53,827 nucleotides of DNA from NCBI GenBank assembly GCA_003246455.1, contig QKAF01000107.1:1-53827 (forward strand), read 5' to 3'. A program made the translations under genes and the position numbers. Of this stretch, positions 27,478 through 43,527 are shown piece by piece. Origin of the DNA: Bacteroidota bacterium. Lineage in GTDB: Bacteria > Bacteroidota > Ignavibacteria > SZUA-365. How positions within the stretch are numbered: the stretch's first letter is position 1; every line of letters starts with the position of its first letter. Below the pieces are notes generated by a model. It was not told the DNA's origin. It ran no database searches and saw only the letters and a list, made by a program, of their open reading frames with translations.

Positions 27478-27646
27478 ATACGCAGGATTGTCCGATTGTT
27501 TCAGCTTTGTGCCCTCATTCTCGTGGGCGCAAACGAGAAATCAACAGATTCCGCTGCGCTTTCCACACTTGAGACAGTTCCGTACATTACACTCCTGCAT
27601 CCTCGGCGGTAGACCTGGGGACGAATTTTTTGGATCGGAGGTATCG

Positions 27647-29008
27647 ATGAAGGCCATTCGGATCGCATTGCTCTCAATGCTGCTTACGGTTTCGGTCGCG
27701 GGCGTCTTGTCCGCACAGGAAGTACAGATCCCCATCGACGACGAAGGCCGTCTGCAGAGGATCACTCCCGAACTGGAGGAGGAACTCAAGCTGTTCACGG
27801 AGTATCCCGGCTTCATCGACGCGCGTCTTTTCCGTCTGTCCGAAAACCGGTATGAACTGGAAATAGAGTACGCGGAGAACGGAGAGACCCGGCGAAGCCG
27901 CCGTGAAATGTCGCATGAGGATATGCGTGCGTTCCGTCTGACCGTAGCCGATCGCCTGAGAATGCGCGCGCCGGGGCTGCTCGTCGATCACGAGGGCCGA
28001 TCCTCGTTCATCACGGGGATGACCGCGCTTTCACTCGGTTTCTACGGCTGGGCTGTTCCGGTCACCATGGGGGTCAGGAGCCCGAATGTCGCCGTCGGAA
28101 GCTATATGATGATCAGCGGCGCCGGCTTCCTCATCCCGTATCTCGCGACGAAGAACTCCCGGGTAACCGATGGCATGGCAACGCTCGGAATTCAGGGCGG
28201 AATCCGCGGTATCGCCGACGGCCTCCTGCTGTACTGGCTGGCAAGCCCCGGTTCGTCGAACGAACGCGAACTGATGGGCGCCGCCGTGGCCGGCAGCGTG
28301 ACCGAACTTATCGTCGGTTACAACGTCGCCGCCATCAGCGACCTCAGCGGCGGAAGCGCGAGTGTGATCAGCGCCGCCGGGAACTTCGGCCTGGGCATCG
28401 GCCTCGGAACGTACCTGCTCATCGCGAAAGACAGTTTTTCCGACAATCGTCTCGCGCCGGCTCTCGGGCTCGGGATGAGTGCCGCGGGGTACGTCGTTGG
28501 CGTTGTCATGGCGAATGACGCTCATTATACCACCGGTGATGCTACGGTGCTGAGCACACTCGGCGGATTATGTGCCTATGCGCCTCCAGCTCTGCTTTCG
28601 CTCACGGACAGCGAGGATGAGAATCTGTATATCAGCTCTTCTATCGCGGGTGCGATCGGCGGATTGATTCTCGGTCACTCGTTTCTTGCCACAAGGGATT
28701 TCACGACCTCGCAGGGAACGTATATCAGTCTGGGGACGAGCGCGGGAGGATTGATGGGGCTCGGGATCGCCATGCTGAGTGCGGACTCCGGCAGCGATGC
28801 CTCGTATTTCCTGACACTCAGCGCACTCGGCGCCGGCGCGGGATTCGCGATTCTCGCCAGCAGCTTCAGCGAAGAAGCCGAAAGCGCTGCGTCAGGGTTG
28901 AGCATGGGATTCCAGGTTTCCCCCCTGGGACTGCTTGCTGCTCTCGGGCGGGATCGGACCACAGATCGGCAGCCAGTACCCCTGATCTCGATGCAGATGC
29001 GATTCTGA
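27647..29008 (+). CDS. Glycine-rich multi-spanning membrane protein of unknown function
   Basis: The 453-aa protein has a signal peptide (cleaved after LSAQ, about 24), a short charged domain (about 25-120) and a long series of Gly/Ala/Ser-rich hydrophobic segments (about 125-440). Many carry small-xxx-small spacing, for example SAAGNFGLGIGLGTYLL and GTSAGGLMGLGIAM. It ends MQMRF, a terminal Phe seen in outer-membrane proteins, so membrane placement is uncertain. The start is supported by CGGAGG 5 nt upstream; the frame stays open 5' but in a noncoding-looking stretch. No family was recognised. Confidence 0.7.
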   Translation: MKAIRIALLSMLLTVSVAGVLSAQEVQIPIDDEGRLQRITPELEEELKLFTEYPGFIDARLFRLSENRYELEIEYAENGETRRSRREMSHEDMRAFRLTVADRLRMRAPGLLVDHEGRSSFITGMTALSLGFYGWAVPVTMGVRSPNVAVGSYMMISGAGFLIPYLATKNSRVTDGMATLGIQGGIRGIADGLLLYWLASPGSSNERELMGAAVAGSVTELIVGYNVAAISDLSGGSASVISAAGNFGLGIGLGTYLLIAKDSFSDNRLAPALGLGMSAAGYVVGVVMANDAHYTTGDATVLSTLGGLCAYAPPALLSLTDSEDENLYISSSIAGAIGGLILGHSFLATRDFTTSQGTYISLGTSAGGLMGLGIAMLSADSGSDASYFLTLSALGAGAGFAILASSFSEEAESAASGLSMGFQVSPLGLLAALGRDRTTDRQPVPLISMQMRF

Positions 29009-30743: not shown

Positions 30744-33700
30744 TTACTTGACCAGCATCATCTTCCGCTGATCGTGGAATATCGTTCCGTCCTGTCCCTT
30801 CGCAAGGATGCGATAGGTGAATACGCCGGACGAAACATTGACGCCTGCCGAGCTGCTGTTCCACATGATGGCATGCGTACCAGCCGGCATTTCTTCGTTC
30901 ACGAGGACGGCAACTTCCTCACCCAGCGAGTTATAGACCGCGAGATAGACGGTGCTGTACTCGGGCAGGGTGTAGGTGATCGTCGTCACCGGATTGAAGG
31001 GGTTCGGGTGGTTCTGATGGAGTTCGAAGCCCTGCGGCACTGCCTCGGTCCTCGCCGCTTTCGGCGGCGGGGTGACGTAGTAGCCACCGAAGAATCTCGC
31101 TGCATCGAAGCCCTTGTTGATGGCGTCGAGCGCGGCGACGATATCTGCAAGGGAAACACCCACGGGAGTCACACCAGCAAGCGCAAGGTTTGCCATTGCG
31201 AGCAGGTCCGCTGCCGTCTTGTTCGAACCGTTCGAGTTCAGTGCGCTCAGCACGTTCGGCGGGAAATAGAAGTTTTGGAACGTGCTGTCCGGCAGATCAT
31301 CCCCGTCAAGGCAGATACCGTTGACGTAGTCCGATCCCTCGGTCCTCATCCACGGTGTCGCGGGAGGCGGCAGGTAGAATGAAGATGCGAGCGTCGTGTC
31401 AAGCCTCAGGTTGAGAGCCAGGGTGATGGTCTGCGAAAGCAGGATGTTGTCGAAGCGGCCCTGGCTGTTCAGCGGCATGCCGGATGGCGTGATGCTGCAG
31501 TTGGGGCTGCTGAAGCGGTAATCCTGGGCAAGTGCGACAGGTGTGCCTCCGCCCGGGAGATACTGGATCACGCACGCTGCATCACCGGTGATGATGGTGA
31601 GCGAGCCCGCTCCCAGCTGGCCGACGGTGATGGTATCACCGCTGAGCATGAGCAGGGAATCGATCAACGCAGCAGTACCCTGTCCCGTTCCGCAGAACGC
31701 TCCGCCGGGATTGCCGTAGAAGCCCTGGGTGAGGGAACCGAACTGGTTGCACAGCTCGGTGATCGTCTGCGTGACGACGTTGGACTCGTTCGCGCAGGCG
31801 TCGACGGCTTTCCACGACTTGACGTGGGTGATGATTCCACCGTTGTAGATGATGGTATCAAGAACCACCACCAGAGCCGGATTCTGATCACAGTTATCCG
31901 CATAGATCGGATCGATGAAGAGAATCGGCTGGCCGCAGGCGACGGTATCGTCGGGTGCTCCCGTGATGGAAGGCGGAGCGGTATCGACGATGGAGAATCG
32001 TGCCATGGTGGACGAGGCGTTGCCGCAGGAGTCCGTGGCGTAGAACGTCACGTCAACATACCCGGTGCTGCCGCAGTTCGGCACGAAGTTGTTCGCATTG
32101 TAGTTGTGTGTCCACGCGAAATCGGAACACACGTCGCTCGCAATCGCGCCGCCCTGGTTTGCAATCCAGCTGTTCAGCCCGGAGAGGTTGCCGGTGCCGT
32201 CGCACTCCACGGTCGTATCCTGCGCCGCGGTCGTGATGGCCGGCGGAGTGGTGTCGACGATGGTGAAGCGCGCGGATGTCGAATCGGCATTGCCGCAGGC
32301 ATCGGTGGCGTAGAACGTCACGTCGATGTATCCGGCGCCGCCGCAGGTCGGCACGAACCTGTTCGCACTGTAATTGTGCGTCCAGGAGAACGAGGAGCAG
32401 GCATCCGTGGCAACCGCACCGCCATGGTTGGCGAGCCAGCTGTTCAGTCCGGCAGTGTTTCCGCTGCCGTCACATTCCACGGTCGTATCCTGCGCCGCGG
32501 TCGTGATGGCCGGCGGAGTGGTGTCGACGATGGTGAACCGCGCCGAGGTCGAATCCGCGTTGCCGCAGTCGTCGGTGGCGTAGAACGTCACGTCGACGTA
32601 TCCTGCGCCGCCGCAGGTTGGCACGAACCTGATCGGGTCGTAATTGTGTGTCCACGAGAACCCGGAGCACACATCACTGGCAACCGCACCGCCATGGTTG
32701 GCGAGCCAGCTGTTCAGGTTCGCAAGATTCCCGTTGCCATCGCATTCAACGGTCGTATCCTGCGCCGCCACCGTGATGTCCGGGGGCGTCGTGTCGACGA
32801 TCGTGAAGCGGGCGCCGGTCGAGGATGTATTGCCGCAGGTGTCCGTGGCGTAGAACGTCACGTCAACGTATCCGGCACCGCCGCAGGTCGGCACAAAGCT
32901 GTTCGCGTTGTAGTTATGCGTCCACGAGAACGCGGAGCACACGTCGCTGGCAACCGCGCCGCCGTGGTTGGCGAGCCAGTTGTTGAGGTCGGCGATGTTC
33001 CCGCCGCCGTCGCATTCCACTGTCGTATCCTGCGCCGCGGTCGTGATGGCCGGAGGCGTGGTATCGACGATGGTGAAGCGCGCGGAAGTAGAGGACGTAT
33101 TGCCGCAGGTGTCGGTGGCGTAGAACGTCACGTCAACATATCCGGCACCGCCGCAGGTCGGCACGAAGCTGTTCGCGTTGTAGTTATGCGTCCAGGAGAA
33201 CGCCGAACACACGTCGCTTGCAACCGCGCCGCCATGGTTGGCGAGCCAGTTATTCAGATCCGTGATATTTCCGCTGCCGTCGCATTCCACGGTCGTGTCC
33301 TGCGCCGCGGTCGTGATGGCCGGCGGAGTAGTGTCGACGATGGTGAAACGTGCGGAGGTCGAGTCGACGTTGCCGCAGTCGTCGGTGGCGTAGAACGTCA
33401 CATCGACGTATCCGGCGCCGCCGCAGGTCGGCACGAAGTTGAGCGGGCTGTAATTATGCGTCCATCCGAACGCGGAGCAGATGTCCGTTGCAGCGGCACC
33501 GCCGTGATTGGCGAGCCAGCTGTTCAGGTCCGTGAGATTGCCGTTGCCGTCGCATTCCACGGTCGTGTCCTGCGCCGCCACGGTGATGTCCGGAGGCGTC
33601 GTGTCGACGATCGTAAAGCGCGCGGAGGTCGTCGAAGCGTTGCCGCAGGTGTCCGTGGCGGTGAACATCACGTCCACGTATCCGGCGCCGCCGCAGGTCG

Positions 33701-36700
33701 GCACGAAGTTGTTCGCGTTGTAATTGTGGGTCCAGGAGAACGCAGAGCACACGTCCGTGGCAACCGCACCGCCGTGGTTGGCGAGCCAGTTGTTCAGGTC
33801 CGCAATGTTGCCGTTCCCGTCGCATTCCACTGTCGTATCCTGCGCCGCGGTCGTGATGGCCGGCGGGGTGGTGTCGACGATGGTCAGACGCGCAGAGGTC
33901 GAATCGACGTTTCCGCAGTCGTCGGTGGCGTAGAACGTCACGTCCACGTAACCGGCGCCGCCGCAGGTCGACACGAAATTGAGCGCGTTGTAGTTATGGC
34001 TCCAGCTGAAATCGGAGCACTGGTCCGTCGCTGTCGCACCGCCATGGTTGGCGAGCCAGCTGTTCAGGTTCGCGAGATTGCCGTTGCCGTCGCATTCCAC
34101 TGTCGTGTCCTGTGCCGCAACGATAACCGGCGGCGTCGTGTCGACGATGGTGAACGTTGCGGAGGTTGAATCGACATTGCCGCAGTCATCCGTCGCATAG
34201 AAGGTGACTGTTGCGCTGCCGGTCTCCCCGCAGAGATCCGAAAGACCGGAGAAGTTGTTGCTCCAGGTCACCGAACCGCAGGCATCCTGCGCCGTACCTC
34301 CGCCGTTGCTTCCGAGCCAGGCGTTCAATTCGGCGAGGTTGCCGCTGCCGTCGCATTCCACGGTGGTGTCGCGTGCGGCAGTGACGACCGGCGGGGTCGT
34401 ATCGATAACGAATACCGTCTGCGAGCAGCTGTCCGCGTTGCCGTAGGTGTCGGTGGCGACCCAGGTGCGCGTGACGCTGTAGGAATTCGGGCAGGAACCC
34501 GGGGCCATCACGGTATTGCTGATCACGACGACGGGATTCGGGTCGCAGTTATCGACCGCGGTCGGCGTCGTAAAGGGCAGCACTGTCGGCGCGGGACATT
34601 CGATGGTCGTGTCCGCCGTGCAGGTGATGACCGGCGGCGTGATGTCCCTCACCGCGACGGTCAGCGAGCAGGTGCTCGAACAGTACGGGAAGGTGGTTTC
34701 CGTGATGGTCAGCATGAGCGTGAAGGATCCGACTGCGACACCGGCATCCACGCTGACCGTCTGGCCGATAGTGGATCCGTTGATGCTGCCGTTCCCCGAG
34801 ATGCTCCAGGCGTAGGTGAACGCTCCGACTGGAGCACTGAAGATGTTGCCGGTCGAACCCGGGCAGACATCGCCGACGGGAGTGATGGAGCAGACCGGGT
34901 TGGACTTCACGGTGATCGTGCGTGACTCTGTCTCGGTGCATCCGTACACGTCCGTGACTGTCAGGGTCAGGGTGAACGAACCCGTTCCGGATGCGCTCAC
35001 AGTGACGGAATCCGACGTCGTGCCGGAGGTGATGGAGCCGTTGCCGGAAATCGACCACTGCCATGCGACGATGGAATCGATGGGAACCGGCGAGTTCGGG
35101 GCGAAGGATGCCCAGAAGGTATTTCCGACGGAGAATTCGCAGACGACCGAATCACCCGCGATCTCGAAATCGGGAATCGGGAAGACGCGGACGATTCCGG
35201 AACAGCCGGAAGAGCTCAATCCGTTCGCATCTGTCAGAACGACCGTGTACGTTCCCGCAGCGGCTGCGGGGACGACAATGCTCTGCGTGTTTGCGCTGAA
35301 ATTATTCGGCCCCGACCATGCGTAGGTGTACGGAGGCGTTCCCTGCGCGATTCGCTGCGCGGTCAGTGTGACCTGGGATTCATCGCAGATCGTGGTATCG
35401 GCGGGAAAAACCGCACAGACAGGCGCGGGGATGTGATTGCCGAAATTGATACCGCCGACGATATTGGTGCCGGTCATGTCTGCGTCCCAGGAAACCGGGC
35501 CCTGACCCAGCAGGATTCCTGCCGGCATGGTTGCGGTACCCTGCAGATAGGTGCCGCTGGAATTGACATCCGGATAGGTCTCCACCCACTCGGATGGCGG
35601 CGTCTGGGCAAATGCCGGCGCTGCGTTCGTGTATCCCGCCGACAATCCTGTCGTCGGACCGTTCGCCAGTTCCTCCGACACCACGTAATGCGCCTGCGGC
35701 AGGCCGGTGATCGACCACAGTCCCGAAGCGTTGGTTATCACCGTGTCGGAAATCGGCAGGCCGCCGATGATGGTGGAGATATAGATGGGCCAGCCGTCGA
35801 GAACGGTTTCATTGCCGTTCTGTACCTGGTTGCCGTCGATATCATGCCATTTCAGCCCGGAAAGCTCTCCCGCAGGCTGCGGCGGAATCGGGATGGGAAC
35901 CGTCTTGTTGCCGGTGACGAGATAGGTATGGCCTGAGGAACCGGAAACGAAGCCGGAACCATGACGGACATCACTGGCGAACGCGGAATAGCCGTAGACA
36001 TATCCGCCCCAGAAGTCCGTGGGCGAGGTATTCAGCTGCGACTGCAGACTGTGGTCCCAGATGAAGGTCTGCGCTTCGTGGAGATTGAAGTAGATGTAGA
36101 AGGTCGTCGTATTCGGAACATTGATCATACCGCCATACGCATTGATGATATCCTGGCGTGTGATCGTGAAGCACCGGGTCGCATCATCGGGTGCACCGAT
36201 CTGTCCAAGCGTGTTCCGGTTCATCTGCGTACTGTCGATGTTCAGAAGCCGATAGCCCGCCCAGTGATACTCGGTCCCCCAGGCATTCAGCCCCTGGCTG
36301 TTCTGCGCGGTTTCCAGCTCGAAGCGGGTAGTCAGCGGAAAGGCCGTACCAGCTGTATCTGATGGCCAGCCCTGGCTGTTGCTCAATCCGGTGGTCCCGA
36401 TCTGAAGCCCGCGCACCAGATCGATGAAACGGGCGTCGAGATTGCCGCGGGTAAAATCGAAACAGATGGATATGTCGGTGAAGTTGGGATTGGTAAGATC
36501 GACGTTTTTGAGCGTCAGTACGTATGGAACCCACTCCCCTTCGTTCCATGTGTTACCGAGATTTCCGGTCGACCACCCGAGGTTCAGACTCCCGTTTCCC
36601 GTCGTGTCTGCTTTGAAGCCCTCGTATCTCTGGACTCCCCAGCCGGTTTGTGCATGTAATGGCACGGACAAGCCGAGTAATATCAGCAGTACCGCGCACG

Positions 36701-36719
36701 CAGTGGTACATCGTTGCAT
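30744..36719 (-). CDS. Giant secreted adhesin-like protein with tandem HYR-like repeats and T9SS domain
   Basis: The 1,991-aa product has a signal peptide (to about 23) and an N-terminal globular region (about 24-280). A SdrD-B-like domain (about 285-345, GLKWHDIDGNQ) and several Ig/PKD-like modules with paired Cys (about 435-710) follow. Then come nine tandem ~90-aa repeats, each with DTTPP, TTVECDG, FVPTCGGAGYVDV and FYATDDCGN-type motifs and about four Cys. A last HYR-like unit and a ~250-aa segment precede a T9SS type A sorting domain (about 1905-1991, NHPNPFNPVTTITY ... KMMLVK). The start is preceded by GAGGAGG. It is probably a surface adhesin or matrix protein; no enzyme motif is seen. 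A perfect terminator follows and a ~300-nt leader precedes it. Confidence 0.9.
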   Translation of the reverse strand: MQRCTTACAVLLILLGLSVPLHAQTGWGVQRYEGFKADTTGNGSLNLGWSTGNLGNTWNEGEWVPYVLTLKNVDLTNPNFTDISICFDFTRGNLDARFIDLVRGLQIGTTGLSNSQGWPSDTAGTAFPLTTRFELETAQNSQGLNAWGTEYHWAGYRLLNIDSTQMNRNTLGQIGAPDDATRCFTITRQDIINAYGGMINVPNTTTFYIYFNLHEAQTFIWDHSLQSQLNTSPTDFWGGYVYGYSAFASDVRHGSGFVSGSSGHTYLVTGNKTVPIPIPPQPAGELSGLKWHDIDGNQVQNGNETVLDGWPIYISTIIGGLPISDTVITNASGLWSITGLPQAHYVVSEELANGPTTGLSAGYTNAAPAFAQTPPSEWVETYPDVNSSGTYLQGTATMPAGILLGQGPVSWDADMTGTNIVGGINFGNHIPAPVCAVFPADTTICDESQVTLTAQRIAQGTPPYTYAWSGPNNFSANTQSIVVPAAAAGTYTVVLTDANGLSSSGCSGIVRVFPIPDFEIAGDSVVCEFSVGNTFWASFAPNSPVPIDSIVAWQWSISGNGSITSGTTSDSVTVSASGTGSFTLTLTVTDVYGCTETESRTITVKSNPVCSITPVGDVCPGSTGNIFSAPVGAFTYAWSISGNGSINGSTIGQTVSVDAGVAVGSFTLMLTITETTFPYCSSTCSLTVAVRDITPPVITCTADTTIECPAPTVLPFTTPTAVDNCDPNPVVVISNTVMAPGSCPNSYSVTRTWVATDTYGNADSCSQTVFVIDTTPPVVTAARDTTVECDGSGNLAELNAWLGSNGGGTAQDACGSVTWSNNFSGLSDLCGETGSATVTFYATDDCGNVDSTSATFTIVDTTPPVIVAAQDTTVECDGNGNLANLNSWLANHGGATATDQCSDFSWSHNYNALNFVSTCGGAGYVDVTFYATDDCGNVDSTSARLTIVDTTPPAITTAAQDTTVECDGNGNIADLNNWLANHGGAVATDVCSAFSWTHNYNANNFVPTCGGAGYVDVMFTATDTCGNASTTSARFTIVDTTPPDITVAAQDTTVECDGNGNLTDLNSWLANHGGAAATDICSAFGWTHNYSPLNFVPTCGGAGYVDVTFYATDDCGNVDSTSARFTIVDTTPPAITTAAQDTTVECDGSGNITDLNNWLANHGGAVASDVCSAFSWTHNYNANSFVPTCGGAGYVDVTFYATDTCGNTSSTSARFTIVDTTPPAITTAAQDTTVECDGGGNIADLNNWLANHGGAVASDVCSAFSWTHNYNANSFVPTCGGAGYVDVTFYATDTCGNTSSTGARFTIVDTTPPDITVAAQDTTVECDGNGNLANLNSWLANHGGAVASDVCSGFSWTHNYDPIRFVPTCGGAGYVDVTFYATDDCGNADSTSARFTIVDTTPPAITTAAQDTTVECDGSGNTAGLNSWLANHGGAVATDACSSFSWTHNYSANRFVPTCGGAGYIDVTFYATDACGNADSTSARFTIVDTTPPAITTAAQDTTVECDGTGNLSGLNSWIANQGGAIASDVCSDFAWTHNYNANNFVPNCGSTGYVDVTFYATDSCGNASSTMARFSIVDTAPPSITGAPDDTVACGQPILFIDPIYADNCDQNPALVVVLDTIIYNGGIITHVKSWKAVDACANESNVVTQTITELCNQFGSLTQGFYGNPGGAFCGTGQGTAALIDSLLMLSGDTITVGQLGAGSLTIITGDAACVIQYLPGGGTPVALAQDYRFSSPNCSITPSGMPLNSQGRFDNILLSQTITLALNLRLDTTLASSFYLPPPATPWMRTEGSDYVNGICLDGDDLPDSTFQNFYFPPNVLSALNSNGSNKTAADLLAMANLALAGVTPVGVSLADIVAALDAINKGFDAARFFGGYYVTPPPKAARTEAVPQGFELHQNHPNPFNPVTTITYTLPEYSTVYLAVYNSLGEEVAVLVNEEMPAGTHAIMWNSSSAGVNVSSGVFTYRILAKGQDGTIFHDQRKMMLVK
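31972..34405 (-). repeat. Nine tandem ~270-bp repeats inside the adhesin gene
   Basis: The motif encoding DTTPP recurs at fixed distances: seven consecutive units of exactly 270 bp (90 aa), preceded in protein order by units of 267 and 261 bp. The units share long near-identical DNA stretches, for example the segment encoding TAAQDTTVECDG. This points to recent duplication or gene conversion in addition to protein-level repetition. Confidence 0.9.
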
Positions 36720-37099: not shown

Positions 37100-40000
37100 C
37101 TAGCGAAGCAGAAGCATGCGCCCGACCCGCGTGTTATTGCTCCCTTGCAGACGATAGTAGTAGGTACCGGACGGCAGAAGCTCCGCATCGAATTGGACGA
37201 TGTGCCGACCCGCTTGCATTGCCACGCCGTGAAGCAGTTGTTTCACGTCCCTTCCGTATGTGTCGAATACGGCGAGTGTTACATTCATGCTGCGGGGTAG
37301 TTCAAAACCGATCATGGTCGACGGATTGAATGGATTCGGATAATTCCCGTGGAGGATAATCGATTCGGCCGCGGATGCGGCGGAAGGAGTCCCTGTTGAA
37401 CCACTCCAGGGCAGGTGGATATACCTGGCTTTGTGCATCTCCTGTCGATACCATGCGCTGATATCCGGACTGTTCTGTATGCGCGCGTCCCCCCACCCGG
37501 GATAAGCCTGCACCGGCCAGTTGGCATCGATATAGCTGAAACCCTTGATCTCGGTGTGAGCGGCGATGAAATCCCAGAATTTAACGAACCAAGCGTCCCA
37601 GTCATTCTGGCTGTCGACAGCGTCCGCGCTGATGTTCATCCCCTTCGCCGAGGTCTCGCTCATGTAGACGGGTTTCCCCTTCTGCCGCGCCATCGCAAGG
37701 AAACGCTCGGACTTCCCCTTCCGCGTGATGCTGCCTCGTTCATAGTCGGGCAGCGTCATGTCGAAATCCTGCGGATCGAAAAGGTCGAGTCCGAACCAAT
37801 CGACATACTCGTCGCCCGGATACCAGAGTGCGCCTTGCGCGTCGGTGGAATCGAAGTTATTCGGACCTGCGGGATAATAGCACCAGATAGTTGCGACAGA
37901 GTCACGGAAGCCGCGTGCTGCGAACATGTCGGTGATCTTGCGGAACATGGTCACGTAGAGATGCTCGTGATACCCGTTCCATGCGCCGTTGAATTCCCCG
38001 CCGATGCGAAGGAACATCGCCTTTCCGTATTCCTTCGAGAGCGTTATGATACTGTCGATGACTGCGTCATACTGTGAAGAAACCGCGATAACACTGTCGG
38101 TCGCGACGTCACTCGTCAGGAAAAGACTCAGTTCCGGGATAAACCCGATGGAATCCGCGGAGCGGAAAAACGCGCCCAGCTGGCGCAGGGTCTGTGCGGG
38201 ACCCCTCGTCCCCGGAATGCTGAAAAACATGCCCCGCGATGCAGGTTGTATGTTTTCATTGTTCAGCGCGGAAAGGTATCCGCCGACAGGGTCGACACCA
38301 CCGCCTTCGAACGTCATGGTCTGGACGCCGTGATAGACCCTGCCGTCCTCCGGTTCGAGCAGAGCGCGCGAGGTATCGGGCTCTGCCTGGAATTCCCATA
38401 CCAGAACGCGTGGTTCCTGGGACACGCTCAGCGACGGGACAAGCTGCCGGACCGAACCCGTTCCGTGCAGCGTTCCGAATATGTCATAGATCTTCAGAAC
38501 GACGGCGTCCTTCGGAATGATGGGGGTGTATAATTCGTCCGTGCTGTCGCTGTCCGACAGGGCATCGCGCCAGACAACGTCGACAAGCTTGTCTTCCGTG
38601 AAACGGTATGCCGCGAATCCGCCACCGGATACATCGGCCGGCGGCGAGGCAGGTTCAATCAGCGACCGCAGGAATACATATGCGTCGGCGGCCAGGTAAC
38701 GCTGACCGCGGTCGGAATACAGACCGAAAAATCGATCCGGCGGCGCGCCGACGACGGGCGTACAGATCCCCTCCAGGCCTGCCGCCATGCCGAATATCCA
38801 CTTCCGTACCATGTCGCCGGCATGGAAGCGTTCCTCGTACACCGTTTCTCCCTGCGCCTCCAGCTGCATCGCCGCTTCGGCGGCGAACCAGGGCTTCAGC
38901 GTCCCGCCCGAGTCTATCACTGCCCGTTCGAACGCCGACATATTCTCGCGGAGGAAGCGCGGTTTGAAATGATAGTGGATATCGAACCAGTCCAGCCAGT
39001 CGGTCTGACCGGCGATCGCGTCCATCCAGTACGTTTCGGGCATGCCTGTCTGCCCCTGCTGCCTGCGCCGGAAATCGCTCCAGCTGCTGATCGGCAGCGG
39101 CCACTGCCGCTCGTACATCGCGTTGAACAGCGTTATCAGCGAATCCTGCGCTTCCGGATGCGCTTCTCCATACGCGAACCAGATCCGTTCCAGCTGTGCG
39201 TAATAATAGAATCCGCCATGCGAGACCTGGATACGGGCGCCGTTTTCCGCGGCGGCCCTGTGGGCGGCGAGATACACGGTGCGCAGACAGCGGATGTAAT
39301 CCTCGACGTCCTGCGGATACGTCTGCTCCGTCGTCATCCAGTGATCGGGGTACTGCGGCTCGTTTCCGTACCGGAGGTAGCCCAGCACCGACGGATTGCG
39401 TTTCGCCGCATGCTCCACCAGGCGATAGGCATAATCGTAAAGGGACTCGGAATACCCGCGCTCGGGAACCGTCGTTGTGAGGGGAATCGAGCGGTCGAGA
39501 TCATCCGGTGCGCGTGCTTCGCCGCCGCTCGCCCACGACGAAGCCGGGGTGAGAAGGAACACTGCCTTCGCGCCACGCTGTGCCGTGAAATCGACAGCCT
39601 GATCGAGCCCGCCCCAGCTGAACGTGTCGTCCGGTCGCTCGACGCGGTCCCACACGAATCCCCATGCGATATACCGGGGATTCCAGTCGTCGTAGACCTC
39701 CCCCGGGAGGGACATGTCAATGTTCCGCAGCCCCCAGTAGCCAGCGGACGCGGGGGGCGACGGTTCCAGCTTCCTCACAACCTCCCGTACGAGGTTCGTC
39801 ATCGTGTACGATTGCGTTTCCGGAAGCCATGCTCCCGGCAGCTGGTACCAGGACTGTATCCAGTATCCGTCCGGTTTCCCCACGCGCTGATGGTAAAGAT
39901 CGATCAGCGCAAGCGTCTGCTCCGAATACCCCTGCGCGTTGCGACCGGCATTCGTATTGAAAATCATGTTGACCTTCATCCCCATTCCCCTTGCTGCGAT

Positions 40001-41545
40001 GTCGAGTTCCGCCAGCCGCTGCATCCAGTCCACACCGGCAATGAGTGCGGGCTGATTCGACTGCGCCCTTCCCGTTGCGTAGTCATAGGGATTGTCGACG
40101 GTCAGCCCGTCAAAATACAGTCCGCTCACGGCCTGCTCTGCCGCCACGGCGTCGAGAACGTCCATGTACTGCCCGTACCCCTCGCTGTGGCCGTCAATTG
40201 CGAAGTACGAGGGAGTGTTCCCCCACGCCCAGTTGGGGAAATTCGTCAGCAGATTTATCTCGATGCCCGGAATGGAATCCCTCCACATCCGGACCACTTT
40301 CGAGAGCTCCGTAACCGCGCTGGCGATGGTGTGATAGTTCGACTGGACATTGTTGGGGAACAGCATGCGGCGGATGGGACCGTCCATGTCGAGCATGTCG
40401 ATGCTGCGGCCGGGATCGATGCTTTTGATCAGATCGATCAGCGGTTTGACGCTGGCGTACTCCTGCTGGAATGACGCGAGGGCGGTCTGCTCTCCCTTCG
40501 AAGCATGCCAGTCGAGCAGTCCTCCCAGTTCGACGGCGATTTTCACATCGTGCGCGAGCAGCGCCGAAACGAAAGTACGTGCCGAATCAGGATCGATGCG
40601 GGTGCTGATATTTCCGATGTACATTTTCAGAATATCGAGCTTGCCGAGAGTCTCGGCCCATCGAGCCGTATCCGCGAGCACCCAGGGATTCCCGTAGCAC
40701 ATCGCGACGCGCGGGGCCGACGGCGAAGGATTGACGTACTTCACCTCCGATTCGAAACGCTGAAGAAAGTCCTCAAGGGAACCCTGTCCGAAATAGAATC
40801 TGCTGATGACGGTCTTCTCCTCCCCGACCGGAATGGATCCAAAATCGGTCGCGGAATGAATGCAGCACCGATCAAGGTTGTCGAAGAGAAAACAGGATTT
40901 TGGACTCGTGGCGGCCATATACGACCTGCCGTCCTCAGACATCGTCACGATATAGGAATCGTCGCTTCGATCGGGACTCGTCGCCTTGAAGCCCTCGATA
41001 AAGGGAGAGACGGGAGCGTATCCATCATTCAGATAGAACTGCACGGTCGCCATGGACCCGTTGTTGATACGCGTTGTTCCATCCATGCGAAACGGCCGCC
41101 CGCCTTTGGACATGTACGTCCGTTCCAGTGTCCAGTCCTGGAAAGCCGGCGCTCCGGCGGGATTGAGGCAGTTGAATGCGAAGACATTCGTCCATGCCGT
41201 CCGTCCCAGGTTGCGCACTGTCATCGTCGCGTCGACATGGTCCGTGGCCGGGGTCAGGACGAGGGAGTACGAGATCTTCCCCGGAGACGTCCACTCCTGC
41301 CTTACCGCTCCGCTCGCATCCGGACCTTCCCATTGAGGAGCTGCCTCCGGGAAATTAAGGATCATACCTTCCGATGACCCGATTGTTTCGGGCAGACCGA
41401 GAATGAACGACTGCCGCGAAATTCCTGGAACACGGACGGTGCAGGCCATTTGTCCTTGCTGCGGTGTCAGCGTTATCGTCTGAGCGGTCAGGGCTGTCGG
41501 TATGGTTATGGCCATCAGGATGAAAAGTGTCACAACGTGTTTCAT
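37100..41545 (-). CDS. Three-barrel secreted glycoside hydrolase-like protein with T9SS domain
   Basis: The 1,481-aa product has a signal peptide (to about 22) and a beta-rich N-terminal domain (about 25-260). Three TIM-barrel-like regions follow. Barrel A (about 270-595) has no recognised family. Barrel B (about 600-960) looks like clan A (GH39/GH42/GH5-like): FVWDRVERPDDTFSW, putative acid/base E729 in RYGNEPQ and nucleophile E890 in WFAAEA, then a small beta domain. Barrel C (about 1070-1375) resembles GH26 mannanases: E1184 in RIGGEFNGAW and E1297 in PVYMSETSAKG. A T9SS domain (about 1395-1481, HGNYPNPFNPSTMIGF ... MLLLR) ends it. The start at 41545 gives the signal peptide; the open frame runs 105 codons further through noncoding-looking sequence. 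It likely degrades a complex polysaccharide. Confidence 0.8.
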   Translation of the reverse strand: MKHVVTLFILMAITIPTALTAQTITLTPQQGQMACTVRVPGISRQSFILGLPETIGSSEGMILNFPEAAPQWEGPDASGAVRQEWTSPGKISYSLVLTPATDHVDATMTVRNLGRTAWTNVFAFNCLNPAGAPAFQDWTLERTYMSKGGRPFRMDGTTRINNGSMATVQFYLNDGYAPVSPFIEGFKATSPDRSDDSYIVTMSEDGRSYMAATSPKSCFLFDNLDRCCIHSATDFGSIPVGEEKTVISRFYFGQGSLEDFLQRFESEVKYVNPSPSAPRVAMCYGNPWVLADTARWAETLGKLDILKMYIGNISTRIDPDSARTFVSALLAHDVKIAVELGGLLDWHASKGEQTALASFQQEYASVKPLIDLIKSIDPGRSIDMLDMDGPIRRMLFPNNVQSNYHTIASAVTELSKVVRMWRDSIPGIEINLLTNFPNWAWGNTPSYFAIDGHSEGYGQYMDVLDAVAAEQAVSGLYFDGLTVDNPYDYATGRAQSNQPALIAGVDWMQRLAELDIAARGMGMKVNMIFNTNAGRNAQGYSEQTLALIDLYHQRVGKPDGYWIQSWYQLPGAWLPETQSYTMTNLVREVVRKLEPSPPASAGYWGLRNIDMSLPGEVYDDWNPRYIAWGFVWDRVERPDDTFSWGGLDQAVDFTAQRGAKAVFLLTPASSWASGGEARAPDDLDRSIPLTTTVPERGYSESLYDYAYRLVEHAAKRNPSVLGYLRYGNEPQYPDHWMTTEQTYPQDVEDYIRCLRTVYLAAHRAAAENGARIQVSHGGFYYYAQLERIWFAYGEAHPEAQDSLITLFNAMYERQWPLPISSWSDFRRRQQGQTGMPETYWMDAIAGQTDWLDWFDIHYHFKPRFLRENMSAFERAVIDSGGTLKPWFAAEAAMQLEAQGETVYEERFHAGDMVRKWIFGMAAGLEGICTPVVGAPPDRFFGLYSDRGQRYLAADAYVFLRSLIEPASPPADVSGGGFAAYRFTEDKLVDVVWRDALSDSDSTDELYTPIIPKDAVVLKIYDIFGTLHGTGSVRQLVPSLSVSQEPRVLVWEFQAEPDTSRALLEPEDGRVYHGVQTMTFEGGGVDPVGGYLSALNNENIQPASRGMFFSIPGTRGPAQTLRQLGAFFRSADSIGFIPELSLFLTSDVATDSVIAVSSQYDAVIDSIITLSKEYGKAMFLRIGGEFNGAWNGYHEHLYVTMFRKITDMFAARGFRDSVATIWCYYPAGPNNFDSTDAQGALWYPGDEYVDWFGLDLFDPQDFDMTLPDYERGSITRKGKSERFLAMARQKGKPVYMSETSAKGMNISADAVDSQNDWDAWFVKFWDFIAAHTEIKGFSYIDANWPVQAYPGWGDARIQNSPDISAWYRQEMHKARYIHLPWSGSTGTPSAASAAESIILHGNYPNPFNPSTMIGFELPRSMNVTLAVFDTYGRDVKQLLHGVAMQAGRHIVQFDAELLPSGTYYYRLQGSNNTRVGRMLLLR

Positions 41546-41850: not shown

Positions 41851-42840
41851 ATGCTATCACCTGACATCCTCCTCGCCATCCTCGCCCTTAGCGCCGGACT
41901 CGCCGTTCTCGTCTGGAGCGCCGATCGCTTCGTCGACGGGGCCGCCGCGCTGGCGAGAATCTTCGGTATGCCCCCGCTTCTTATCGGCATGATCATCGTC
42001 GGATTCGGGACGTCCGTCCCGGAAATGATCGTCTCCGCCTTTGCCGCACTGCAGGGCAATCCGGAACTCGCCCTGGGAAACGCCTACGGCTCGAACGTCG
42101 CGAACATCGCGCTCATTCTCGGTATCACCGCGCTGGTCAATCCCATCCGCATCGGTTCCGGTATCGTGCGGCTCGAAATGCCGATTCTCCTGGGGGTCAC
42201 CGCGTTCGCGGGAGTGGAAGTGTACACCGGCGATCTGACACGCGTCGATGCTCTGCTTCTGCTTGTGGTGTTCACCGCCCTGATGGGTTGGAGCCTGTGG
42301 CAGAATGCGCACAAGGACCGCGACCATCTGGCCCAGGAAATGGAGGAGGAACTCGCGACGAAGTCCATGTCCCGGCGGCCAGCAGTGCTGTGGACGGCCA
42401 CGGGACTCATCCTGCTCGTTGCCAGTTCACGCGCGCTCGTGTGGGGTGCTGTCGAGATCGCCTCGGCCATCGGCATCAGCGATCTCGTTATCGGGCTGAC
42501 CGTCGTCGCGCTCGGGACCTCCCTGCCCGAACTCGCCTCCTCGCTCGCCGCGGTAAAAAAGAACGAGCACGATATCGCGCTCGGAAACGTCCTCGGATCG
42601 AATCTGTTCAACACACTCGCTGTTGTCGGTATTGCGGGAGCCATTTCCCCTCTGCGCGTTCCTGCGGAGGTGCTCACGCGCGATTACCCGGTCATGGCCG
42701 CACTCACGCTGCTTCTTTTTCTCCTGCTGTACGGCTTCAGACACGGCGGGCAGCTCACGCGCGCGAAGGGCGCCCTGCTCCTGGGCACTTACGCCGCATA
42801 TACGCTTTACCTCATCATGACAACGGTCCGTTTCCTCTGA
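41851..42840 (+). CDS. Calcium/sodium:cation antiporter (CaCA family, YrbG-like)
   Basis: The 329-aa membrane protein has about ten helices and the two inverted alpha-repeat signatures of the CaCA family: GFGTSVPEMIVSAF with ALGNAYGSNVANI (about 55-90), and ALGTSLPELASSLAA with ALGNVLGSNLFNT (about 210-250). These acidic Glu residues and Asn residues bind Ca2+ and the counter-ion. Length fits the family. The start at 41851 puts the first helix at the N-terminus as in YrbG-type proteins; a GTG at 41815 is an in-frame alternative. It is convergent with the next gene. Confidence 0.9.
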   Translation: MLSPDILLAILALSAGLAVLVWSADRFVDGAAALARIFGMPPLLIGMIIVGFGTSVPEMIVSAFAALQGNPELALGNAYGSNVANIALILGITALVNPIRIGSGIVRLEMPILLGVTAFAGVEVYTGDLTRVDALLLLVVFTALMGWSLWQNAHKDRDHLAQEMEEELATKSMSRRPAVLWTATGLILLVASSRALVWGAVEIASAIGISDLVIGLTVVALGTSLPELASSLAAVKKNEHDIALGNVLGSNLFNTLAVVGIAGAISPLRVPAEVLTRDYPVMAALTLLLFLLLYGFRHGGQLTRAKGALLLGTYAAYTLYLIMTTVRFL

Positions 42841-42866
42841 CCGCTCGCCTTCCGCAAACGAAATCC

Positions 42867-43358
42867 CTATTTGATGGCAGCCTGAATGTCGCGCGCGATG
42901 GCGATCAGCTTGGTTTTCAAGTCCGTGGTTCCCGGATGATCGAGATGGATATGAACGATCAGCTTTGAGTTCAGCAGAACCGACAGCTGCTTCCATTTCT
43001 CCGACATCACCGCCTTGCGGCCGATACCGGTCACCGGGCTGCCATCCTTGTAGGTGGCACGAACGCGCTCGAAGTCCTTCTCGGCGCCGACCTCCGCGAA
43101 CACCACCAGCAGCTTGCTGCCCGACGGCGCCACGCCCGCCTTCAGCCGCAGTGCGTCGCCTTTCTCCGGGACTCCCCACACGACGGTTGCCGTGGGATAC
43201 GTTTTCTTCTTGAATTCCTCGAATTTCACCTCCTCCCCCTTCGCAAGCGCGAAGTGCTTTCGCACGTAATCGCCGGTGATGATATGGTCGTAGGGCTGAC
43301 TGAACGCCGCAACGGAAAGGAAGAGAAAACTCAGCGCTGAAAAGAAAAGTCGAAGCAT
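42867..43358 (-). CDS. Small secreted protein of unknown function
   Basis: The 163-aa product has a signal peptide (to about 20, VAAFSQ) and a mixed alpha/beta body with charged segments (EEVKFEEFKKKTYPTATVVWG and GRKAVMSEKWKQLSV). The C-terminal helix is amphipathic. No family was recognised. The start at 43358 was chosen for the signal peptide and an AGG upstream. It lies between the convergent exchanger gene and the arginine operon, and the ~170-bp gap to argH contains nothing recognisable. Confidence 0.7.
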   Translation of the reverse strand: MLRLFFSALSFLFLSVAAFSQPYDHIITGDYVRKHFALAKGEEVKFEEFKKKTYPTATVVWGVPEKGDALRLKAGVAPSGSKLLVVFAEVGAEKDFERVRATYKDGSPVTGIGRKAVMSEKWKQLSVLLNSKLIVHIHLDHPGTTDLKTKLIAIARDIQAAIK

Positions 43359-43527
43359 ATCGGACCTGCCAGGGTTTCGGAGAATATCTATCGGAGAATG
43401 TGTACGCATACCGCGGAGTGGTGTTCCGGGCACGAACCATGTTTACAGGAGAAACTACGCAACCGCAGGTATAAAGGTCAACGCGGATTTTATCGATGCC
43501 GCATTTCGTAGTACAGACCCGCGCGCA

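Follow-up and report, generated by a model that had tools for sequence, protein, structure and literature searches.

A predicted T9SS-exported three-barrel glycosidase from the Ignavibacteria that joins a barrel of no assigned family to a xylanase-type GH26 module

The stretch of DNA analysed here (the window, 53,827 nucleotides of contig QKAF01000107.1 from a bacterium of the Ignavibacteria) encodes a chain that opens with a signal peptide and closes with a T9SS type-A tail; between these lie an N-terminal domain rich in beta strands and, after it, three TIM-type barrels. We propose, with a probability of about 0.6, that it is a T9SS-exported multicatalytic glycoside hydrolase, located at the cell surface or secreted, in which a (beta/alpha)8 barrel (module 1) and an endo-acting GH26 of the beta-1,3-/mixed-linkage-xylanase type (module 3) would form a conserved core pair, and a clan GH-A-like retaining glycosidase (module 2), the third enzyme, would be inserted between them. 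Held together at the surface, the modules would each act on different linkages within a single complex glycan. A more specific version is put forward tentatively: module 1 would represent a new GH family whose catalytic pair is the Asp of strand 4 and that of strand 6, while module 2, a mobile cassette in a fixed core, would stand for another unassigned family, of clan A, with the three enzymes acting jointly on one glycan.

Results

Gene, export signals and domain layout

The open reading frame is read on the minus strand from an ATG at 41545 to a final codon at 37103 and a stop at 37100 (Table 1). A GTG at 41860 could also open the frame; the start at 41545 is favoured because the hydrophobic, signal-like MKHVVTLFILMAITIPTALTAQ, from which the signal peptide was called by eye, fits it. 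The NCBIfam T9SS sorting domain TIGR04183 was matched at residues 1402-1476 (26 bits, cut-off 23), and the chain therefore carries both marks of a T9SS type-A cargo, the N-terminal signal peptide and the C-terminal sorting domain. A search of the organism's own genome with the whole protein rendered ca. 148 matches, nearly all to T9SS-type tails, which indicates that T9SS export is probably routine for this organism; since these tails swamped the search, the modules were searched separately. Apart from GH26 and the T9SS tail, Pfam and NCBIfam recognised no family over the whole chain. A promoter and terminator scan gave scores no better than those of shuffled sequence.

Table 1. Features of the three-barrel gene and its product (window coordinates)
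Feature	Position	Strand	Basis
Whole gene, 1,481 aa + stop	37100..41545	-	ORF
Signal peptide, residues 1-21	41483..41545	-	hydrophobic N-terminus (inference)
N-terminal beta-rich domain, residues 22-272, no Pfam family	40730..41482	-	AlphaFold, relatives
Module 1, (beta/alpha)8 barrel without assigned family, residues ~279-600	39746..40711	-	searches, AlphaFold
D388, proposed nucleophile of module 1	40382..40384	-	invariant, last residue of strand 4; analogy (PMC1249566)
D484, proposed acid/base of module 1	40094..40096	-	invariant, last residue of strand 6; analogy (PMC1249566)
Module 2, clan GH-A-like barrel and C-terminal beta part, residues ~602-1052	38390..39742	-	homologues, AlphaFold, Foldseek, VIA-align
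E729 of NEP, proposed acid/base of module 2, after strand 4	39359..39361	-	invariance, model
E890, proposed nucleophile of module 2 (poorly modelled region)	38876..38878	-	invariance
Module 3, GH26 barrel of beta-1,3-xylanase type, residues 1063-1380	37406..38359	-	Pfam, PDB sequence homology
E1184, GH26 acid/base	37994..37996	-	invariant in six sequences; aligns with acid/base Glu
E1297, GH26 nucleophile	37655..37657	-	invariant in six sequences; aligns with AlXyn26A E243
T9SS type-A C-terminal sorting domain, residues 1395-1481	37103..37363	-	NCBIfam, tail matches in genome

The initial annotation had described a chain of this length with three barrels and a single T9SS signal, and this layout is borne out by the ORF, the AlphaFold models, the Pfam GH26 match and the NCBIfam tail. 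The four glutamates that it named are also where it placed them, E729 in GNEP, E890 in AAEAAM, E1184 in GGEFNG and E1297 in SETSA. Its N-terminal barrel does exist, but not as a single module, since the beta-rich domain and the barrel that follows it are separate. The beta-rich domain is poorly modelled by AlphaFold; it is present at full length in two relatives, G422 (81% identity) and G403 (71%), internally shortened in G428, and missing from G399 and most other relatives compared. The recurrence of homologues, with module 1 relatives falling at 58-84% and at 23-27% identity, those of module 2 at 59-68% and those of GH26 at 39-89%, argues against the modules being products of chance.

The GH26 module

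The Pfam GH26 profile matches residues 1177-1318 with 24.7 bits (24.7-28 across searches; cut-off 20.2), and all six aligned module 3 sequences match it. The nearest solved relatives are the Vibrio beta-1,3-xylanase Xyl4 (2ddx, E 5e-28) and Algibacter AlXyn26A (7xjr, E 2e-26), with homology spanning about 245-305 residues, and mannanases come next at E 7e-5. Both catalytic glutamates align in AlXyn26A, whose E243, the counterpart of E1297, is replaced by Ala in 7xs3. Module 3 is therefore very probably a GH26, as had been claimed. The mannanase signature (the acid/base Glu preceded by His and followed by WFWWG) is missing, module 3 having GGEFNGAWNGY where the mannanase 1j9y has YHENTGSWFWWG. 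An assignment as mannanase was rejected, given the absent signature and E-values 23 orders worse than those of the xylanase matches. By sequence, the module lies nearest to the beta-1,3-/mixed-linkage xylanases, and it is predicted to be endo-acting. Because of this grouping and of the missing signature, mannan and glucomannan, which were among the substrates initially suggested, are not the first ones to try. Xyl4 cuts homo-beta-1,3-xylan, and AlXyn26A cuts mixed-linkage xylan plus beta-1,3-xylo-oligosaccharides (PMC12706835). In contrast to these two enzymes, the GH26 of the window is one of three barrels on a chain with a T9SS tail, in a host without GH43 or xylose isomerase matches.

The first barrel

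Module 1 has no match by sequence in Pfam, NCBIfam or solved structures, and no relevant Pfam or PDB-sequence profile was found up to E 10; within these collections, the earlier statement that the first barrel lacks a family is upheld. Within the class, 10 of 391 genomes carry it, counting the organism's own; it is present in six of the 12 genomes of the same family, and in two more distant sources. It occurs as a tandem pair in a genome from another class of the phylum (G391, E 8e-12), and a genome-collection scan added a homologue (L065) with 39% identity.

The AlphaFold model has eight alternating strand-helix units, mostly of good confidence, with strands at residues 279-284, 305-309, 335-340, 384-388, 429-435, 480-484, 524-529 and 560-564 (protein numbering; model offset +21), so that the (beta/alpha)8 barrel is, as a model, well supported. 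Across 11 aligned sequences, with identities down to ~23%, three acids are strictly invariant (D388, D484 and E576), and all but one of the 11 retain E339, at strand 3; conservation centres on the barrel-mouth motifs MDxP, SW and PE. In clan GH-A, strands 4 and 7 each end with a Glu. Strand 4 of module 1 ends in D388 and strand 7 has Asn or Asp, with no invariant acid, and a clan-A mechanism does not fit this module because Asn, not Glu, stands at strand 7. In the families GH27 and GH31, strand 4 ends with the Asp that serves as nucleophile and strand 6 with the proton donor (PMC1249566); D388 and D484 of module 1 end these same two strands, a correspondence of position only. No homology to GH27, GH31 or GH36 was detected by sequence in Pfam or among PDB sequences up to E 10. 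The module 1 motifs MDxP and xDxP differ from those known for the three families.

With the model of the N-domain and barrel 1, the top Foldseek row was the alpha-galactosaminidase 8x1b (E 2e-11, TM 0.18), a GH36 enzyme; GH66-type and GH31-type enzymes were also among the top five, with low TM-scores, and 3wnn, 8t7z and the GH191 enzyme 9euz were, like 8x1b, in the top 34. The top VIA-align rows for module 1 were mainly GH53 (Z 16.4), GH1 and GH30 barrels (Z 14.5-16.4, rmsd 4-5 A), although the absence of a family from these rows does not exclude that family. The GH27/GH31/GH36 alpha-glycosidase superfamily shares with module 1 the acids ending strands 4 and 6 and supplies the top Foldseek row, whereas a sequence match is lacking and the TM-score is very low. 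Given that TM-score, the poorly modelled N-domain and the preference of VIA-align for other barrels, the GH36 likeness may reflect just the shared barrel. In contrast to the fold, the clan of module 1 is thus poorly supported.

Module 1 is a credible candidate for a new glycosidase family. The initial proposal of such a family thus keeps its barrel, seen in the AlphaFold model, while the new family is possible. That module 1 is an active glycosidase is somewhat probable; that it works as a retaining one through D388 and D484, by analogy with the GH27/GH31 superfamily, may be the case, at slightly less than even odds.

The middle barrel

Module 2 has no Pfam or NCBIfam family and nothing significant among PDB sequences. 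A weak lead among the latter, 8fa4 (E 0.7), is consistent with clan A. Homologues were found in G399 (68% identity) and G436 (59%), and the 395 genomes of the phylum contain only two marginal matches besides the window itself. The AlphaFold model (two sequences) has a mean pLDDT of 49.6 and is reliable over its first half only, which consists of barrel strands and helices and in which NEP (728-730) directly follows strand 4 (721-726). The Asn-Glu that marks clan GH-A at the end of this strand is therefore present, and NEP is invariant in three homologues, as is E890, around which pLDDT is below 50. In Foldseek, the top rows were PslG of Pseudomonas aeruginosa (4zn2, 5bx9; E 1e-3, 20-22% identity over 175 columns) and then GH35, and the best structural neighbours were PslG, GH35, GH53 and GH5 enzymes; VIA-align reached Z ~8 at best, with a tie among clan-A enzymes. 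The likeness to PslG is weak, and PslG lies outside any three-barrel T9SS chain. The clan-A character claimed for this barrel finds support in NEP after strand 4 and in these neighbours, and module 2 is probably a clan GH-A-like barrel. We infer a retaining glycosidase with E729 as acid/base and E890, at a plausible position in a region whose fold is left unmodelled, as nucleophile.

Architecture in relatives

Seven relatives of the protein have both module 1 and GH26. Two (G422 and G403) consist of the N-domain, module 1, GH26 and the tail, G428 of the same with a shortened N-domain, and G679 and G621 of module 1, GH26 and a tail-like end; in these five, module 1 and GH26 occur without module 2. 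In G399 the order is that of the window without the N-domain (module 1, module 2, GH26, tail), and G436 has module 1 (with an in-frame TAA), GH26, a fn3-like domain, module 2 and the tail. A further gene, that of G389, joins module 1 to a metalloprotease-like region, a propeller-like region and a weak tail, with no GH26 partner. Module 1 is paired with GH26 in eight of the nine assessable genes of the class, the window's own included, and the two form a conserved core.

In the window, REVVRKLEP and ALLEPEDGRVYHG directly flank module 2, and in G422 the sequences corresponding to these two flanks adjoin each other. Judged from these sequences, module 2 appears as a cassette cleanly inserted between module 1 and GH26, and placed after GH26 in one relative. 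Window and G436 are 27% identical in module 1, 39% in GH26 and 59% in module 2, a pattern that points to a separate history for module 2 and to its movement as a cassette. Carriage by viruses or plasmids was considered and rejected: viral_contigs rendered no match to module 1 or module 2, and plasmids none to module 1 or the N-domain.

Genomic context

Upstream of the gene, on the same strand, are those for an unknown 337-aa protein, argH, an M20 peptidase and argB, and downstream a 1,991-aa T9SS-tail-like repeat protein and a subtilase. The genome, 98% complete, has no match to SusD, GH43 or xylose isomerase (controls were positive). Membership of the gene in a PUL was discarded, with no SusD anywhere in the genome.

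Discussion

The catalytic role of module 1 has to be weighed against two other views. It could be a non-enzymatic barrel, carbohydrate-recognising or structural, that positions GH26, the two Asp binding a ligand or a metal. Such a role would agree with its almost constant company with GH26, with its joining to an unrelated metalloprotease-like region in G389, and with a chemistry that no family or fold match fixes; the invariant acids at the catalytic-end strand termini, however, and the conservation centred on the barrel mouth make it quite unlikely. It could also belong to a known family (GH36/GH27/GH31/GH66, or GH114/GH191-like) from which it has diverged beyond the reach of Pfam profiles, as the Foldseek rows named above and the acids at strands 4 and 6 would allow. 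The lack of any relevant profile match and the clan-A barrels on top in VIA-align speak against this view, which we hold to be doubtful.

The substrate is a separate matter. Growth on xylan is doubtful and a xylan-feeding role is unsupported, because SusD, GH43 and xylose isomerase are missing from the genome. Processing of a matrix or exopolysaccharide is thus a live rival to xylan feeding. A role in remodelling the exopolysaccharide or biofilm matrix of its own cell or of a neighbour, instead of in growth on algal xylan, would also fit the best Foldseek neighbour of module 2, PslG being an endoglycosidase of the Psl matrix, and a gene that lies outside any PUL and adjoins arginine-biosynthesis genes. 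Nevertheless, the resemblance to PslG is slight, Bacteroidetes without PULs can still degrade plant glycans using T9SS enzymes (PMC5831590), and the pentose-use search covered xylose isomerase, one pentose route among others; we consider this remodelling role rather unlikely. The exported core of module 1 and GH26, with the inserted clan-A-like module 2 and joint attack on one glycan, remains the preferred reading.

The order of the modules, which the initial annotation called unusual, is not unique, since G399 shares it (without the N-domain). Multicatalytic glycosidases with T9SS export are also a known kind, and GH5-GH26 is one of the combinations described. Those of Ca. Paraporphyromonas polyenzymogenes (GH5-GH5 and GH5-GH26; PMC5831590) likewise have several catalytic domains per T9SS chain, hypothetical regions beside the GH domains and no archetypal PULs, whereas in the window's protein there are three barrels, of which two have no Pfam or NCBIfam family and the GH26 is of the xylanase type. 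The CelAly-like modular enzymes of flavobacteria (GH5 cellulase plus PL31 lyase) also carry two catalytic activities and unknown domains on one chain and concern mixed cell-wall glycans (PMC13235733), but none of the window's modules is present in them. The new elements here are the pairing of a conserved barrel, as yet unnamed, with a GH26 of the xylanase type, and a clan-A cassette that has been shuffled.

Should module 1 prove active, it would represent a new glycosidase family for which a catalytic pair can already be suggested, and its regular association with a GH26 of the beta-1,3-xylanase type would narrow the first list of substrates. Moreover, the inserted and relocated module 2 illustrates how T9SS enzymes may gain activities through cassette shuffling.

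Homologues of module 1 and genes around the focal gene

Two distant copies of module 1, the first barrel of the focal protein, occur in tandem in a protein of G391, a genome from another class of the phylum, with the strand 4 motif being MDEP instead of MDGP. A homologue of ca. 39% identity, preceded by an additional N-terminal region, is found in a GC-rich MAG; this gene is incomplete, since it runs off the contig end, and any partner of module 1 would lie beyond the sequence. The G389 protein joins a copy of module 1 with 58% identity to a metalloprotease-like region, which bears the motif HEVGHIYGGFDEY, and to a propeller-like region, with no strong Pfam match for either.

Directly downstream of the focal gene lies a gene whose product carries PKD/HYR and OmpL47-type repeats and ends in a weak T9SS/FlgD-like tail. 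Two other ORFs of the window rendered no match in Pfam or NCBIfam.

The beta-rich N-terminal domain of the G428 protein has an internal in-frame deletion of roughly 170 residues. In G436, module 1 is interrupted by an in-frame TAA (L066 represents the same gene), which could reflect either an assembly error or gene decay.

Coordinates of the features (L, loci in other genomes; others, window)
Feature	Coordinates	Length (aa)
G391 tandem	L077:5571-8240	889
MAG homologue	L065:3723-5111	
G389 fusion	L038:8419-12117	
G428 protein	L052:4282-6930	
G436 TAA	L055:5199	
Repeat protein	30744-36719	1,991
ORF	27488-29008	506
ORF	42427-43440	337
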